This document shows, one piece after another, positions 1 to 15,225 of a stretch of 64,000 nucleotides of DNA. The stretch comes from Stagnimonas sp. (lineage in GTDB: Bacteria; Pseudomonadota; Gammaproteobacteria; Nevskiales; Nevskiaceae). Under the pieces are notes generated by a model that worked only from the letters and a program-made list of their open reading frames with translations, made no database searches and was not told the origin of the DNA. Position numbers and translations under genes: made by a program. The stretch spans positions 1 through 64,000 of the forward strand of contig JAUYNO010000051.1 of NCBI GenBank assembly GCA_030696045.1. Reading direction: 5' to 3'. How positions within the stretch are numbered: position 1 is the stretch's first letter; each line of letters begins with the position of its first letter.

Positions 1-3000
1 GGCCTGCCGGATCAGCCACTGGTATCGGCGCGGCTGTTCGAGGGCCTGTCCGATACCCTGGCCCTGCTCGAAGAAACCAACGCGGCTGGCGATCTGGCGC
101 CGCTGCGGCCGCTGCGCGCCCTGCTCGATTCGGCCTGCGCGTCGCCGCCGGCAACGCTGACGGCGCTCTGGCAGGGCCTGGCGCCGGTGGCCGCGCTAGC
201 GGCGCAGTTGGGCCGCGAGCAGCAGACCGGGGCAAGGGGCTGGGCCGAGGCCATCGAGCGGCAGAGCCGGGCCGCCCTCGCCGACCTGCAATGGCTGGCG
301 CCCTGGCTGCTGCTGGAGCCGCCGCCGCTGGGTCTGGATGACATCCACCCGGACGCGCCGATTCCCAGCCTGCGCGGGCTGGCCGGGCACGGTCAGGATC
401 GGCTGGCGGAGCTTGCCCTGCGCCTGGGTCAGGCGATCAGTCCGGCGCAGCAGGCCTGGCTCACCGACTACCGCGCCGACCTGGCGCTCGGCGGCCAGCG
501 CGCCCGGGAACGCATCGCCGACTGCGAGGCGCTGGCGCAACAGGCGGCCGGCTTCGCCGACATGGATTACGAATTCCTGTACGACCGTACCCAGCACCTG
601 CTGGCGATCGGCTACAACGTCGACGAGTTCCGCCGCGACAGCAGCTATTACGACCTGCTCGCCTCGGAAGCGCGACTGGCCTGTTTCGTCGCCATCGCCC
701 AGGGCCGGCTGCCGCAGGAAAGCTGGTTCGCGCTCGGGCGCCTGCGCACCAGCACCGGCGGCGAGCCGATCCTGGTGTCCTGGTCGGGCTCGATGTTCGA
801 GTACCTGATGCCGCTGCTGGTGATGCCCAGCTATCCCGGCACCCTGCTGGACCAGACCTGCGCGGCGGCAGTGAGCTGGCAGATCGCCTACGGCCAGAGC
901 CGGGGCCAGCCCTGGGGCATTTCCGAGTCGGGCTACAACGCGGTCGACGCCAGCCTCAACTACCAGTACCACGCCTTTGGGGTGCCCGGCCTGGGCCTGA
1001 AGCGCGGTCTGTCGGAAGACCTGGTGGTGGCGCCGTATGCCAGCGCATTGGCGCTGATGGTGGCGCCGGAAGCGGCCTGCGTGAACCTGCAGCGCCTGGC
1101 CGCCACCGGACTCGACGGGCCCTATGGCTTCTACGAGGCCATCGACTACACGCCCTCGCGCCTCACACCCGGCCAGACCGGCGTGGTGGTGCGCTCGTTC
1201 ATGGCGCACCACCAGGGCATGAGCTTGCTGGCAATGGCGCAGCTGCTGCTGGATCGGCCGATGCAGCGGCGCTTCGAGTCCGACCCCCGGTTTCAGGCGA
1301 CGCTGCTGCTGCTGCAGGAGCGCATCCCCAAGAACGCGAGCTTCCAGACCCACACCGCCGACGCCGCCGACAGCGGCGCCTTCGACGAGGCGCCGGAAAT
1401 CTCGGCGCAGGCGCCGCTGGGCGCCTACACCCCGACGCCGGAAGTGCAGCTGCTGTCCAACGGCCGCTACCACGTCATGCTCAGCAATGCCGGCGGCGGC
1501 TACAGCCGCTGGAAGGACATCGCCGTCACCCGCTGGCGCGAGGATCCGAGCTGCGACCACTGGGGCAGCTTCCTGTACCTGCGCGACGTCGCCAGCGGCG
1601 AGTTCTGGTCCGCCGGCCACCAGCCGACGCTGCGCCAGGCCGACCACTACGAAGCCCTGTTCACGCGCGGTCGCGCCGAGTTCCGACGCCGCGACGCGCA
1701 CTACGAGAGCCATTCCGAGATCGTGGTATCGCCGGAAGACGACATCGAACTGCGCCGCCTGCGGGTCAGCAATCGATCCTCGGCGCGGCGGCTGCTGGAA
1801 GTCACCAGCTATGCCGAGGTGGTGCTGGCCAACCCGGCCGCCGACCTGATGCAGCCGGGCTTCGGCAAGCTGTTCGTGCAGACCGAAATCCTGCCGGGCC
1901 GGCGCGCCATCCTGTGCACCCGGCGGCCCCGCTCGCTGGGCGAGCCGACGCCCTGGATGTTCCACCTGCTCGCCAGCAACGGCGCCCTCATCGAATCGGC
2001 TTCCTACGAGACCGACCGCATGCGCTTTCTCGGCCGTGGCCGCAGTGGCGCCGCGCCGCAGGCGATGGACCAGGCCGGGCCGCTGTCGGGCAGCCAGGGG
2101 TCGGTGCTCGACCCCATCGTCGCCATCCGCTGCCGGCTGACGCTGGAGGCCGAGCAGTCGCTGACGCTGGACTGGGTCACCGGCGTCGCCGACAGCCGCG
2201 ACGCCTGCCTGGCCCTGGTCGAGAAATACCAGGACCGCCACCTCGCCGACCGCGTCTTCGACCTTGCCTGGACCCACCACGGCGTGACCCTGCGGCAGAT
2301 CAACGCCAGCGATGCCGATGCCCAGCTCTACCGCCGGCTGGCCGGCTCGGTGCTCTACGCCAATGCCGCGCTGCGGGCCGAAGCCGCGGTGCTGATCCAG
2401 AACCGGCGCGGCCAGTCCGGGCTCTGGGGCTACGCCATCTCCGGCGACCTGCCGATCGTGCTGCTGAAGATTGCCGACAGCGCCCACATCGACCTCGCGC
2501 GCAAGCTGATCCAGTGCCACGCCTACTGGCGGCTCAAGGGGCTAAGCGTGGATCTGGTGATCTGGAACGAGGACCACGTCGGCTACCGCCAGCGCCTGCA
2601 GGACCAGATCCTGGGCCTGATCGCCACCGGCACCGAGGCCCATGCCGTCGACCGGCCGGGCGGCATCTTCGTGCGCTCGGCCGAGCAGATCTCGGCCGAG
2701 GACCGCATCCTGCTGCAGGCGGTGGCGCGGGTGGTGATCTCCGACAGCAGCGGCAGTCTGAGCGAGCAGCTGCAGCGTGCCGTGCTGGCAGACAAGAAGC
2801 CGCCGCGCCTGGTGCCCAGCCGCATCCATCGCCCCGAGCCGGCGGCGGCGGCCGAAGCGCAGCCTCCCGAGCTGATCCTCGGCAACCCGCTGGGTGGCTT
2901 CAGCGCCGATGGCCGCGAGTACTGCATCACCAGCTCGGCGGCGCAGCGCACGCCGCTGCCCTGGGTCAATGTGCTGGCCAATCCCGGCTTCGGCTCGGTG

Positions 3001-10233: not shown

Positions 10234-11049
10234 CTAGTTGAGCAGGCGCCGATAGTCGTCCACCACCGCCGCGTAGCATTCGCAGGAAACCGCTTCCAGC
10301 CCGGACCGGTCGAGGATGCGGATCTCGCCCCGGGCATAGCCGATCAGATTCCGCGCCTGCAAGGCGCCGGCGGCGACGGTCACGCCGCTGCGGCGCACGC
10401 CGAGCATGTCGGCCAGAAACTGGTGGGTGAGATGGAAGTGATCGGCGTGCGCACGGTCGTGCGTCATCAGCAACCAGCGCGCCAGCCTGGCCTCGACCTC
10501 GTGAAAGCGAGTGCAGGCCGTGGTCTGCGCCAACTGCGCCATCAGCACATACAGATAGCGGTTCAGGCCGCGCAGGAGGATCGGGCTGACACTCGCCGCC
10601 TGCCGGAACTGGGCGGCGGTCATGCGCAGGGCACTGCCGGCGCCCTGCACCACCGCTCGCAGCGGCGCGCTGCCAACGCCCAGCACCATCGTCACTCCGA
10701 GCATGCCTTCGCTGCCGATCAGACCCATCTCCAGCGGCCGATGACCGGCCACCGAGACCACCAGGGAAATGAATCCGGTCAGCGGAAAATAGACGTGCCG
10801 AAATGGCTCGTCCGGCTCGCACAGCACCGCGCCAAAGGCCAGTTCGACCGGCTCACAGCGGGCCATGATCGGCCCACGTTCCGAACGCGGCAGCGCGTCG
10901 ATCAGACGGTTGACCACGGATGCCGACGAACCTGCGTGCACGATACAACCCCGCAGCACGGTGATAGCCGGACGGCACGGGAGAGGTACTGAGACAATCC
11001 CGCCTTGGCAGTCTGTCACCGCCGGCGGCGTCCATCCGTTCGCTGGCAC
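10234..11049 (-). CDS. Crp/Fnr family transcriptional regulator (paralogue 1; true start probably downstream of 11049)
   Basis: NRLIDALPRSERGPIMARCEPVELAFGAVLCEPDEPFRHVYFPLTGFISLV...HLTHQFLADMLGVRRSGVTVAAGALQARNLIGYARGEIRILDRSGLEAVSCECY (cNMP-like domain plus winged HTH). Confidence 0.85.
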   Translation of the reverse strand: MPANGWTPPAVTDCQGGIVSVPLPCRPAITVLRGCIVHAGSSASVVNRLIDALPRSERGPIMARCEPVELAFGAVLCEPDEPFRHVYFPLTGFISLVVSVAGHRPLEMGLIGSEGMLGVTMVLGVGSAPLRAVVQGAGSALRMTAAQFRQAASVSPILLRGLNRYLYVLMAQLAQTTACTRFHEVEARLARWLLMTHDRAHADHFHLTHQFLADMLGVRRSGVTVAAGALQARNLIGYARGEIRILDRSGLEAVSCECYAAVVDDYRRLLN

Positions 11050-11071: not shown

Positions 11072-11812
11072 CTAGGGAATCGGAGCGGCCCTGGGACGGT
11101 CGGCCACGTACGGCAGCAGGCGGTCGGTTTCGCGCTTGACCACGGCGTAGCACTCGCAGCTCAGCGCTTCCAGCTTGGGACGATCCAGCACGGTGATCTG
11201 GCCGCGGTTGTATTCGATCACGCCGAGCTTCTGCAGCTTGCCGGCGGCTTCGGTGACGCCCTCGCGGCGGACGCCGAGCATGTTCGCGATCAGCTCCTGG
11301 GTCATGGTCAGCCGGTTGGCCGACAGCCGATCCAGCGACAGCAGCAGCCAGCGGCACAACTGCTGGTCGATGCTGTGATGGCGGTTGCAGACCGCGGTCT
11401 GCGCCATCTGCGTTATCAGGGCCTGGGTGTAGCGCAGCAGCAGCAGCATCAACTCGCCGTGCCGGTTGAACTCATTCTTGATCTGTTGCCCGGGCAGCCG
11501 GTAGGCCGAGCCCGCGCTCTGCACGATGGCCCGGCTCGGGGTGCTTTCGCCACCCATGAACAGAGAGATGCCAATCAGGCCCTCGTTGCCGACCACGGAG
11601 ATTTCCGCCGAGGCGCCGTTCTCCATGACATAGAGCAGGGAGACAATCGAGTCGGTCGGAAAATAGACGTGACGCAGGGTATCCCCCGACTCGTACAGGA
11701 CCTTTCCCAGCGGCAGCGGCACCAGCTCCAGCTGGGGCAGCAGTCGCTCCAGCACCGCCGGGGGCAGGGCTGCCAACAAGTGATTGGACCGTGGAGAAGG
11801 GTTGGTGGGCAT
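11072..11812 (-). CDS. Crp/Fnr family transcriptional regulator (paralogue 2)
   Basis: MPTNPSPRSNHLLAALPPAVLERLLPQLELVPLPLGKVLYESGDTLRHVYFPTDSIVSLL...MTQELIANMLGVRREGVTEAAGKLQKLGVIEYNRGQITVLDRPKLEALSCECYAVVKRE; start chosen at the internal ATG at 11812. Confidence 0.88.
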   Translation of the reverse strand: MPTNPSPRSNHLLAALPPAVLERLLPQLELVPLPLGKVLYESGDTLRHVYFPTDSIVSLLYVMENGASAEISVVGNEGLIGISLFMGGESTPSRAIVQSAGSAYRLPGQQIKNEFNRHGELMLLLLRYTQALITQMAQTAVCNRHHSIDQQLCRWLLLSLDRLSANRLTMTQELIANMLGVRREGVTEAAGKLQKLGVIEYNRGQITVLDRPKLEALSCECYAVVKRETDRLLPYVADRPRAAPIP

Positions 11813-12020
11813 TCTGGATCGGTCGCGTTGCTGATCGGGAAATCCGCTTCCCGGCTGGGATCCCATGATCGGCCCAGGGATGTTCGCGGTCCGTACGGTA
11901 GCGCACTTTGTGCTCCCAGAAACCAGCGGCCGTGGCGCGAGCCCGGCGGTTTGTCGCCGCGCGTGGTCTTGCCCCGGTGTAGGCTGCGCGGCCCCTACTC
12001 CGCCGCCACGCAGGCCGGCC

Positions 12021-12908
12021 ATGCCCCAGACCGACAACCGACGCGGAATCATCGCCATGCTGCTGGCGGTGGTGCTGTTCACCTTGATGGATGCCTGCCT
12101 CAAGCTGCTGAGCCCGCACTATCCACCGATCCAGACGGCGGCCCTGCGCGGCCTGGCCTCGCTGCCGCTGGTGACGGTCTGGGTACTGAGCAGTGGCCGG
12201 GCGGCGACGCTGTTGCGCATCCGTTGGCGGCTGCACCTGTTCCGTGGCGTGCTGGGCATCGCGATGATGGCCTCGTTCAGCTACGCACTGCGCACGCTGC
12301 CGCTGGCGACCGCCTACAGCCTGTTCTTCATTGCTCCGCTGCTGATCACGGCGCTGTCGGGCCCGATGCTGGGCGAGACCGTGGGGCGCAATCGCTGGAT
12401 CGCGATTGCCTGCGGCCTGCTGGGCATGCTGGTGGTGCTGCGCCCGACCGGCGCGGGCCTGCAATTGCTGCCGGCGCTGGCGGTGCTGTTCGCCGCCGCT
12501 GGCTATGCCTTCAGCGCGATCACGGTGCGGATACTGGCGCGCACCGACAGCACGCAGGCGATGGTGTTCTGGCTGATGCTGCTGCTCGGCGGCGGCGCGG
12601 CCCTGGTGGCGGCACCCCACTGGGTGCCGATCGCGCCGGCGCACTGGTGGATACTCGCCGCGCTGGGGCTCTGCGGCACCGGCGGGCAGATCGCGATCAC
12701 CACCGCCTTCTCCAAAGGCGAGGCCAGCGTGATCGCGCCCCTGGAGTACTCGGCGCTGGCCTGGGCGCTGGGCCTGGACCTGCTGCTCTGGCAGGCGCTG
12801 CCGGACGGCATGACCCTGCTCGGCGCGGCCATCATCGTCGCGGCCGGCATCTTCCTGATCCGTCGCGAAACCGCGCCCAAGGCGGCGCTGCCGGAGTGCT
12901 CGCCCTGA
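12021..12908 (+). CDS. DMT-superfamily transporter (EamA-type)
   Basis: MPQTDNRRGIIAMLLAVVLFTLMDACLKLL...; about 10 hydrophobic segments in two EamA-like halves; start taken at the internal ATG at 12021. Confidence 0.85.
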   Translation: MPQTDNRRGIIAMLLAVVLFTLMDACLKLLSPHYPPIQTAALRGLASLPLVTVWVLSSGRAATLLRIRWRLHLFRGVLGIAMMASFSYALRTLPLATAYSLFFIAPLLITALSGPMLGETVGRNRWIAIACGLLGMLVVLRPTGAGLQLLPALAVLFAAAGYAFSAITVRILARTDSTQAMVFWLMLLLGGGAALVAAPHWVPIAPAHWWILAALGLCGTGGQIAITTAFSKGEASVIAPLEYSALAWALGLDLLLWQALPDGMTLLGAAIIVAAGIFLIRRETAPKAALPECSP

Positions 12909-12957
12909 GCGCCGGGGGGCTTTCCTTCCGCGCACGGCCTCGCCATAATCCGCGCCC

Positions 12958-13020
12958 ATGAAGCTCTCCCGCGCCCTCAAAGCCATTCTCGTCGTCGCCG
13001 TCGTTACCGACGCGTCGTAG
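12958..13020 (+). CDS. putative ilv leader peptide MKLSRALKAILVVAVVTDAS
   Basis: 20-codon ORF with run Ile-Leu-Val-Val-Ala-Val-Val, directly followed by an antiterminator/terminator pair and then acetolactate synthase. Confidence 0.8.
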   Translation: MKLSRALKAILVVAVVTDAS

Positions 13021-13073
13021 GGGAGCTGCTGAATCACCAAACCCCTGCCGACGCGAAATCGGCAGGGGTTTTT
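13011..13073 (+). promoter_or_regulatory. ilv transcription attenuator: antiterminator (13011-13023 with 13042-13055) vs terminator (13040-13051 with 13059-13070)
   Basis: Terminator AACCCCTGCCGA-CGCGAAA-TCGGCAGGGGTT followed by TTT-C-TTT. Antiterminator CGCGTCGTAGGGG pairs with CCCCTGCCGACGCG (13 bp, one bulge, one G-U), sharing the terminator 5' arm. Confidence 0.8.
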
Positions 13074-13133
13074 CTTTGAGCTTCACCCCCCGCCGGTTCC
13101 ACGTCCCAGGGTCTTCGCAACCAGGACGTAGCA

Positions 13134-14828
13134 ATGAACCAGACCATCACCGGCGCAGAACTGATCGTGCAATTGCTGGAGCGCCAGGGTGTCGACCTTG
13201 TCGCCGGCATTCCCGGTGGCGCAATCCTGCCGCTCTACGAGGCGCTGGGCGGCGACACCCGCGTGCGCCACGTGCTGGCCCGGCACGAGCAAGCCGCGGG
13301 CTTCATCGCGCAAGGCATGGCGCGCGTCACCGGCAGGGCCGGCGTCTGCATCGCCACCTCCGGCCCCGGCGTGACCAACCTGCTCACCGCCATCGCCGAC
13401 GCCAAGCTGGACTCGGTGCCCCTGGTCTGCATCACCGGCCAGGTGCCGCAGGCGCTGATCGGCACCGATGCCTTCCAGGAGGTGAAGACCGGGCATCTGG
13501 TGGACTCCATCACCAAGGCCAACTTCTTCGCCCGCTCGGTGGACGAGCTGCTGTGGATGATTCCGGAGGCCTTCCGCATCGCCGAGTCCGGCCGACCCGG
13601 CCCGGTGCTGGTGGACGTGCCCAAGGACGTGCAGCTGCAGCGCATCGCCCTGCCCCTACCGCCGGCACCGGAGCTGGGCGAGACCGGCGAGCAGCAACGG
13701 CCGCCGACGCCGACCGCCTGGGCCACGGCGGCGGCGATGATCAATGCGGCGCAACGGCCAGTGCTGTATCTCGGTGGCGGGGTGGTGAAGGCGCGGGCCT
13801 GGGAGGCGGCGCGCGAGCTGGCGGAGAAGGCCGGGCTGCCGACCACCACCACGCTGATGGCCCTGGGTGCCTTGCCACACGGCCATCCGCTGAGCCTGGG
13901 CATGCTCGGCATGCACGGCGCCCAGGCCACCAACCGGGTGCTCGATGAATGCGATCTGCTAATCGCGGTGGGTGCGCGCTTCGACGACCGCGCCACCGGC
14001 CGACCGAGCGGCTTCTGCCCGAATGCCCAGATCATCCACGTCGACCTCGATGCCCGCGAGTTCGGCAAGATCAAGACGCCAACACTGGCGCTGCAAAGCG
14101 ATGCCCTGCGCGCCTTGCAGACCCTGCTGCCGCGCCTGCGTGCGCAATCACGGCCGGGCTGGCTGGCCCGCGTCGCGACGCTGCGGGCGACCTATCCCGC
14201 CGAACCGCCACGCGACAGCCTGATGGACCCGCTGGGCCTGATCGCCGCCGTGGCCAAGCTGGCCGGGCCGGAGGCGCTGATCAGCACCGACGTGGGCCAG
14301 CACCAGATGTGGGTGGCGCAGCACTATCCCTTCGCGCGCCCGGATCGCTGGCTGACCTCGGGCGGGCTCGGGACCATGGGCTTCGGCCTGCCGGCCGCCA
14401 TCGGCGCCGCCCTGGCGCGCCCCGATCTGCCCACGGTCTGCTTCACCGGCGACGGCAGCCTGCTGATGAACGTGCAGGAACTGGCGACGCTGGCCGAACT
14501 GGACCTGCCGGTGAAGATCGTGCTGATGGACAACGCCGCGCTGGGGCTGGTGCGCCAGCAGCAGACGCTGTTCTACCGGCAGCGCCACGTCGCCTCCAAC
14601 TACGTGACGCCGACCGACTTCGGCAAGGTGGCGGAGGCCTTCGGCATCCGCAGCTGGGATCTCGGGCGGCTGCGCAATCCGCAGAAGCGGCTGGAGGAAG
14701 CCTTCAGAGCACCCGGCCCGGCACTGATCCGCGTGCCCATCGCCGCCGACCGCCAGGTGCTGCCGATGGTGATGCCAGGGCGGTCGAATCTGGAGGTGGT
14801 GGAGCAGTACGTGGATACGGAGACCTGA
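13134..14828 (+). CDS. ilvB: acetolactate synthase large (catalytic) subunit
   Basis: MNQTITGAELIVQLLERQGVDLVAGIPGGAILPLYEAL...RHEQAAGFIAQGMARVTGRAGVCIATSGPGVTNLLTAIADA...FTGDGSLLMNVQELATLAELDLPVKIVLMDNAALGLVRQQQ (ThDP enzyme, AHAS type). Confidence 0.92.
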   Translation: MNQTITGAELIVQLLERQGVDLVAGIPGGAILPLYEALGGDTRVRHVLARHEQAAGFIAQGMARVTGRAGVCIATSGPGVTNLLTAIADAKLDSVPLVCITGQVPQALIGTDAFQEVKTGHLVDSITKANFFARSVDELLWMIPEAFRIAESGRPGPVLVDVPKDVQLQRIALPLPPAPELGETGEQQRPPTPTAWATAAAMINAAQRPVLYLGGGVVKARAWEAARELAEKAGLPTTTTLMALGALPHGHPLSLGMLGMHGAQATNRVLDECDLLIAVGARFDDRATGRPSGFCPNAQIIHVDLDAREFGKIKTPTLALQSDALRALQTLLPRLRAQSRPGWLARVATLRATYPAEPPRDSLMDPLGLIAAVAKLAGPEALISTDVGQHQMWVAQHYPFARPDRWLTSGGLGTMGFGLPAAIGAALARPDLPTVCFTGDGSLLMNVQELATLAELDLPVKIVLMDNAALGLVRQQQTLFYRQRHVASNYVTPTDFGKVAEAFGIRSWDLGRLRNPQKRLEEAFRAPGPALIRVPIAADRQVLPMVMPGRSNLEVVEQYVDTET

Positions 14829-14829
14829 T

Positions 14830-15225
14830 ATGCCCGCAACACTGATCGAGATTCGCCGCCACTACAGCGGGGAGCAGGAGATCGCCATCATCGAGGCCGT
14901 GCACTCGGCGCTGGTGTCCAGCTTCAGGATTCCGGCGGGCGACAGGACCGTGAGACTGGTGGTGCACGAACCCCATCGCATGGTCTGTTCGCCCAACCTC
15001 GCCCATCCCGAGCTGTTCACGCTGGTCAGCATCGACGCTTTCGCGGGCCGGTCACTGGACGCGAAGCGCTCGCTCTACCAGACCATCGTCAGCAACCTTG
15101 AGCCGCTGGGCATTCCCAGGAACCACATCAAGATTCTTCTGCGGGAACTCCCCAAGGAGAACTGGGGAATTCGTGGCGGCCAGGCGGGATGCGACCTCGA
15201 CCTCGGCTTCAAGGTCGAGGTCTAG
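14830..15225 (+). CDS. tautomerase family protein (4-oxalocrotonate tautomerase-like)
   Basis: MPATLIEIRRHYSGEQEIAIIEAVHSALVSSFRIPAGDRTVRLVVHEPHRM...; N-terminal Pro after Met; two nt after the ilvB stop. Confidence 0.7.
   Translation: MPATLIEIRRHYSGEQEIAIIEAVHSALVSSFRIPAGDRTVRLVVHEPHRMVCSPNLAHPELFTLVSIDAFAGRSLDAKRSLYQTIVSNLEPLGIPRNHIKILLRELPKENWGIRGGQAGCDLDLGFKVEV

Follow-up and report, generated by a model that had tools for sequence, protein, structure and literature searches.

The window, a 64,000-nucleotide stretch of a Stagnimonas sp. contig, carries an ilvB gene for the large subunit of biosynthetic acetolactate synthase (TIGR00118, 628.6 bits against a cut-off of 538.35; the best match, PRK08155, reaches 835.8 bits, just under its cut-off of 870). 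The gene before the leader region encodes an EamA-like transporter and ends at 12908, and a tautomerase-family gene (PF14552, 66 bits) directly follows ilvB and is presumably co-transcribed with it. There is no ilvN 3' of this ilvB; the sole match to PF10369, the C-terminal domain of the small subunit, lies on another contig, at G000:C35:73983-74198, beside ilvC. The placement of ilvN after ilvB is a feature of the E. coli operon and does not define the attenuator discussed below. On the ilvC contig (locus L168) the ilvN-like ORF and ilvC share a strand and overlap at the upstream end of ilvC; about 2.7 kb away, on the opposite strand, lies another large-subunit gene (614 aa, 42% identical). 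Elsewhere in the window, two adjacent Crp/Fnr-like regulator ORFs on the minus strand (10234-11049 and 11072-12103) are similar enough by eye to suggest paralogues; of the two, the second alone matches an NCBIfam model, at a score below cut-off. The features of the ilvB leader region and the two genes that follow it are these:

12921-12949, plus strand: candidate promoter, with -35-like TTTCCT (12921-12926), a 17-nt spacer and -10-like CATAAT (12944-12949); weak, 8 of 12 consensus matches
12958-13020, plus strand: leader peptide ORF MKLSRALKAILVVAVVTDAS and its TAG stop (ATG at 12958, 20 codons, TAG at 13018-13020)
12962-12969 with 13020-13027, plus strand: long-range helix, AGCUCUCC with GGGGAGCU, predicted in the untranslated full-length fold
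12985-13005, plus strand: putative regulatory codons Ile-Leu-Val-Val-Ala-Val-Val (ATT CTC GTC GTC GCC GTC GTT)
13000-13003 with 13008-13011, plus strand: small GUCG/CGAC hairpin, a possible protector of the 1:2 type
13011-13023, plus strand: antiterminator 5' arm (segment 2), over the Ala-Ser codons and the stop (sequence, folding, compensatory changes)
13039-13051 with 13059-13071, plus strand: intrinsic terminator hairpin, 13 bp, 7-nt loop (folding, conservation)
13042-13055, plus strand: antiterminator 3' arm (segment 3), made up of terminator-loop bases and the greater part of the terminator 5' arm (sequence, folding, compensatory changes)
13069-13077, plus strand: terminator U tract, TTTTTCTTT
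13134-14828, plus strand: ilvB
14830-15225, plus strand: tautomerase-family gene

Leader ORF and alternative hairpins upstream of ilvB

A preliminary description of this DNA had reported a complete attenuator here, and its reading of the 20-residue ORF with the run of seven Ile, Leu, Val and Ala codons proved correct when letters and coordinates were re-read. The region holds a short leader ORF whose run of control codons specifies amino acids of the pathway, and a Rho-independent terminator stands between the leader and the structural gene, 131 nt past the stop of the EamA-like gene. The stem AACCCCTGCCGA/TCGGCAGGGGTT (13040-13051/13059-13070) is perfect over the 12 bp originally claimed and is followed by the U tract; it is in fact longer by a 13th, A-U pair (13039/13071). 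The competing helix, 13011-13023/13042-13055, has the 13 pairs, single bulged C and single G-U pair first ascribed to it, and by capturing the terminator 5' arm it excludes the terminator. Its 5' strand shares bases with the final leader codons and stop, again in agreement with the initial coordinates, and would be covered by a ribosome at the leader stop. Folding, a check that had been proposed earlier, gives the two structures as alternatives with energies of -23.8 (terminator) and -22.3 kcal/mol (antiterminator), as close as a switch requires.

The 136-nt region folds with z = -2.93 relative to shuffles. When 12909-13133 was shuffled 4000 times with dinucleotides preserved, a comparable terminator arose in 55 of the shuffles, four of which also had an alternative helix that takes its 5' arm; none joined these two to an Ile/Leu/Val-rich leader ORF ending there. 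The two strands of the 64-kb window together have 354 ATG ORFs of 15-40 codons, and the I+L+V content of all of them stays below 45%, with a maximum of 44%. The observation is confirmed as exact to the base and as exceeding chance.

Conservation and distribution of the element

In the ilvB orthologues of the family examined first (60-100% identity), the element is found at all 19 loci: the leader has 19-22 aa and in most cases a VVxDAP end, and it is followed by G(C/T)(G/A)(C/T)CGTAGGGG-like bases and the terminator. The homologous leaders comprise 28 distinct sequences, likewise of 19-22 aa, with 44% I+L+V. At each position from -7 to -14 relative to the stop, 14-27 of the 28 have I, L or V, and the residues interchange among the three while the class is retained. 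The final residues (mostly DAP and stop) stay fixed, probably because they encode the antiterminator arm.

Both helices are kept as well. Terminator pairing is preserved in 99.6% of cells, with double changes at four pairs among the 19 relatives, and antiterminator pairing in 97.2% of cells of the 28 distinct sequences, against 40-55% when the arms are slid. At two antiterminator pairs both partners are substituted: the window's genus has U-A for C-G, and another genus has A-U for G-C. With their bases in or beside the terminator loop, these pairs are not accounted for by the terminator alone. The covariation is limited, since the majority of pairs are invariant and the double substitutions come from two clades. 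The outermost pair, 13011/13055, is not conserved. The small GUCG/CGAC hairpin retains its pairs in 18 of 19 family sequences but gives no independent support, because it is near-invariant and the codon overlap fixes its bases. The comparative alignment for codon conservation and covariation suggested at the outset has thus been carried out, with both hairpins and the ORF kept in every family genome that has an ilvB orthologue, and with compensatory pairing seen.

A covariance model (R1) was used to search 58 genomes of the family and gave 33 strong matches of 44-87.5 bits, the next best scoring 33 bits. The 12 matches examined beyond the training set include 10 that precede ilvB and one that precedes ilvE; a gene for an IlvB-type acetolactate synthase large subunit follows the element in the window and in 29 of the 31 family matches examined. 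When 37 family genomes were searched for ilvB (presence meaning at least 60% identity), the leader occurred in all 21 that have the gene and in two of the 16 that do not. Across the class as a whole, matches at E <= 0.01, many of them weak, occur in 45 of 291 genomes; of the best seven matches outside the family (L149-L155), six are followed by an acetolactate synthase gene. Two kinds of candidate were set aside: the best lower-scoring R1 match in the window's own genome (C9:1308-1390), on inspection a bare terminator after an unrelated gene, and opposite-strand matches at the same loci, which arise from the near-palindromic terminator.

Two loci depart from this arrangement. At L148 (G020:C72, about 1440-1640, minus strand), in a genome without an ilvB orthologue, an ivbL-type attenuator stands directly before a gene for a branched-chain, IlvE-like aminotransferase (PF01063; TIGR01123, 258.7 bits, cut-off 250); the first codons, ATGGACATC, match the usual ilvB start of relatives, as if ilvB had been deleted from an ilvB-ilvE operon. 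An IlvE-like gene lies 3' of ilvB in several relatives (four checked), often with a 4-nt overlap, so that if G020 lost ilvB, ilvE would come to stand directly behind the attenuator. At L146 (G007:C1, 1450-1961) an intact attenuator is followed only by a 114-aa ORF that lacks a Pfam match and weakly resembles IlvB residues 126-175, possibly an ilvB relic with its attenuator retained. Other families of the order (L020, L022, L023) have a different branched-chain amino acid leader (e.g., MRFNLVSVLVNVVLVVVVPTGGFGVGNGMR) before ilvG-like genes; there the acetolactate synthase downstream is 46-48% identical, the leader has its own GC-rich terminator, and the ivbL-type model gives only about 14 bits.

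Relation to the ivbL leader and the proposed switch

The ilvBN operon of E. coli is an established case of attenuation (cited in PMC1183508; PMC10272879). A second covariance model (R2), trained solely on the window's family, detects eight loci of Enterobacteriaceae, E. coli among them, at 51.8-64.3 bits and just upstream of ilvB (L031-L035, L037, L041, L042); the leader at L033 is the ivbL peptide MTTSMLNAKLLPTAPSAAVVVVRVVVVVGNAP. The window and the E. coli ivbL region, homologous by this search, have the same antiterminator letters, GCGCCGTAGGG with CCCCGCCGGCGC, at the same position over the leader stop, and the same type of gene downstream. They differ in that the window's leader has 20 aa rather than 32 and fewer Val codons, in the tautomerase gene that takes the place of ilvN after ilvB, and in a possible transcription start at or near the AUG. 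The ilvGMEDA leader and the his/trp/leu-type attenuators of Enterobacteriaceae likewise combine a leader ORF carrying control codons with mutually exclusive antiterminator and terminator. By description, the ilvB-II, ilvB-OMG and ilvB uORF motifs (of Corynebacterium, various phyla and Leptospira) are also similar, with a uORF rich in branched-chain amino acid codons and attenuation proposed upstream of ilvB (PMC10272879); the window itself draws no Rfam match.

On the strength of its anatomy and its homology to ivbL, in addition to its conservation, compensatory pairing and co-occurrence with ilvB, the element is filed as an ivbL-type, ribosome-mediated transcription attenuator. That it controls ilvB is very probable, and we infer that it responds to starvation. 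The preliminary description's appeal to the classical attenuation logic of E. coli is supported by the conserved leader and hairpins, by the compensatory pairing, and by the identity of the element with the E. coli ivbL leader.

As we picture the process, RNA polymerase would start at or just before the leader AUG, with a ribosome trailing on the nascent RNA. Given ample charged Val, Leu and Ile tRNAs, the ribosome would reach the stop at 13018-13020 and cover 13011-13023, the terminator at 13039-13071 would form, and transcription would end before ilvB. With charged tRNAs scarce, the ribosome would stall on Ile-Leu-Val-Val, at about 12985-12996, where the codons appear placed to free the antiterminator; segment 13011-13023 could then pair with 13042-13055, the terminator would be blocked, and ilvB and the next gene would be transcribed.

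A model in which the ribosome covers 11-14 nt beyond the A-site refines this picture. In a modelled stall at Leu12988 or Val12991-12994 the full antiterminator (-22.3 kcal/mol) is available before the terminator 3' arm is made. At Val13000 the antiterminator remaining is worth -20.5 to -10.9 kcal/mol, by footprint, and at Val13003 -10.9 to -7.3 kcal/mol; with the ribosome at the leader stop none is left, in accord with the masking originally predicted for that position. The companion prediction, that stalling at the Val codons of about 12991-13003 frees the antiterminator, holds in this model for the 5' part of the run (about 12985-12996 frees it fully) but not for 13000-13005, where the arm would be partially masked.

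In the window, 8 nt separate the -10-like CATAAT from the leader ATG, and congeners L002 and L003 have CATAAT at the same spacing. Four genomes of a second genus have TACACT 9 nt before the ATG, and one genome of a third has TATCTT 6 nt before it, with a good -35. Altogether 8 of 19 leaders (L001-L003, L014, L016-L019) have a -10-like element 6-9 nt before the ATG; in some others the best -10 sits 26-39 nt upstream. These spacings suggest leader transcripts that are leaderless or nearly so in three genera, including the window's. The leaderless start stays a proposal because a promoter scan of the window did not report the 12921-12949 site at its threshold. An attenuator RNA that starts at the leader AUG is that of Sinorhizobium meliloti trpL (PMC7298713), whose 5' end is known, whereas the window's is placed from a -10-like element. 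In the window's genus, the full-length RNA without a ribosome is predicted to fold with 12962-12969 and 13020-13027 paired and the terminator formed, hiding the antiterminator, so that the ribosome-free state would be expected to terminate. That helix is known only from this genus (three congeners, identical leaders). We tentatively propose, at a little short of even confidence, that in the three genera the ivbL leader resides on a leaderless mRNA that starts at or 1-3 nt before the AUG, with ribosomes loading on the 5' end, and that in the window's genus the helix shuts the switch when no ribosome is present.

Alternative explanations and significance

The hairpin and U tract could be a plain intrinsic terminator of the upstream EamA-like gene, with the leader ORF and alternative helix coincidental. 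The terminator is strong by itself and lies 131 nt past that gene's stop, but the sequence upstream differs even in congeners L002 and L003, where the leader is intact; moreover, terminator-loop bases dispensable for termination are conserved, with covariation between them and the leader arm, the element goes with ilvB across genomes, and no shuffle reproduced the combination. This reading is accordingly highly improbable. Even less probable is a metabolite riboswitch or T-box before ilvB, for which the ppGpp riboswitches that regulate genes of branched-chain amino acid metabolism in certain bacteria are a precedent (PMC8632094, PMC10272879). Leader ORF, terminator and antiterminator account fully for the conserved core, which shows no other structured domain; in the window, Rfam yields no match at gathering score, and the best sub-threshold matches are unrelated. 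Nothing relevant appears there at either gathering or permissive thresholds, and since the E. coli ivbL loci also draw no match, Rfam is silent on membership of the ivbL type.

A different question is what a leader-peptide attenuator would sense. Rather than codon-by-codon tRNA charging, the signal could be general translation efficiency or the nascent peptide. A leader codon change at Corynebacterium ilvB-II did not abolish regulation (PMC10272879); nor did leader codon substitutions at ilvB of Streptomyces coelicolor, which were without effect, so that a leader rich in branched-chain residues need not act by codon (PMC1262725). The predicted default helix of the window's genus, which would hide the antiterminator, also favors such a signal. 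Against it stands the free exchange of I, L and V at -7 to -14 (14-27 of 28 leaders), since swaps that keep the class fit codon sensing better than a specific peptide sequence, and we regard a signal other than codon-by-codon charging as very unlikely.

The ivbL-type attenuator at this ilvB is well supported, an ordinary further example of a switch with a long history in E. coli, and has a few small features that are new. A literature search found no paper on this attenuator in the window's relatives, and prior description is possible; Vitreschak et al. reportedly surveyed proteobacterial attenuators in 2004 (FEMS Microbiol Lett 234:357). The finding extends the E. coli ivbL attenuator, with near-identical antiterminator letters, to another bacterial family and to an ilvB that is unlinked from ilvN. 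The approximately 30 naturally varied leaders constitute a set for testing which stall positions count, while attenuators that head ilvE or a possible ilvB relic bear on the retention and reuse of such switches. Should the leaderless reading prove right, the family would also offer a simple system for the study of attenuation with leaderless initiation.
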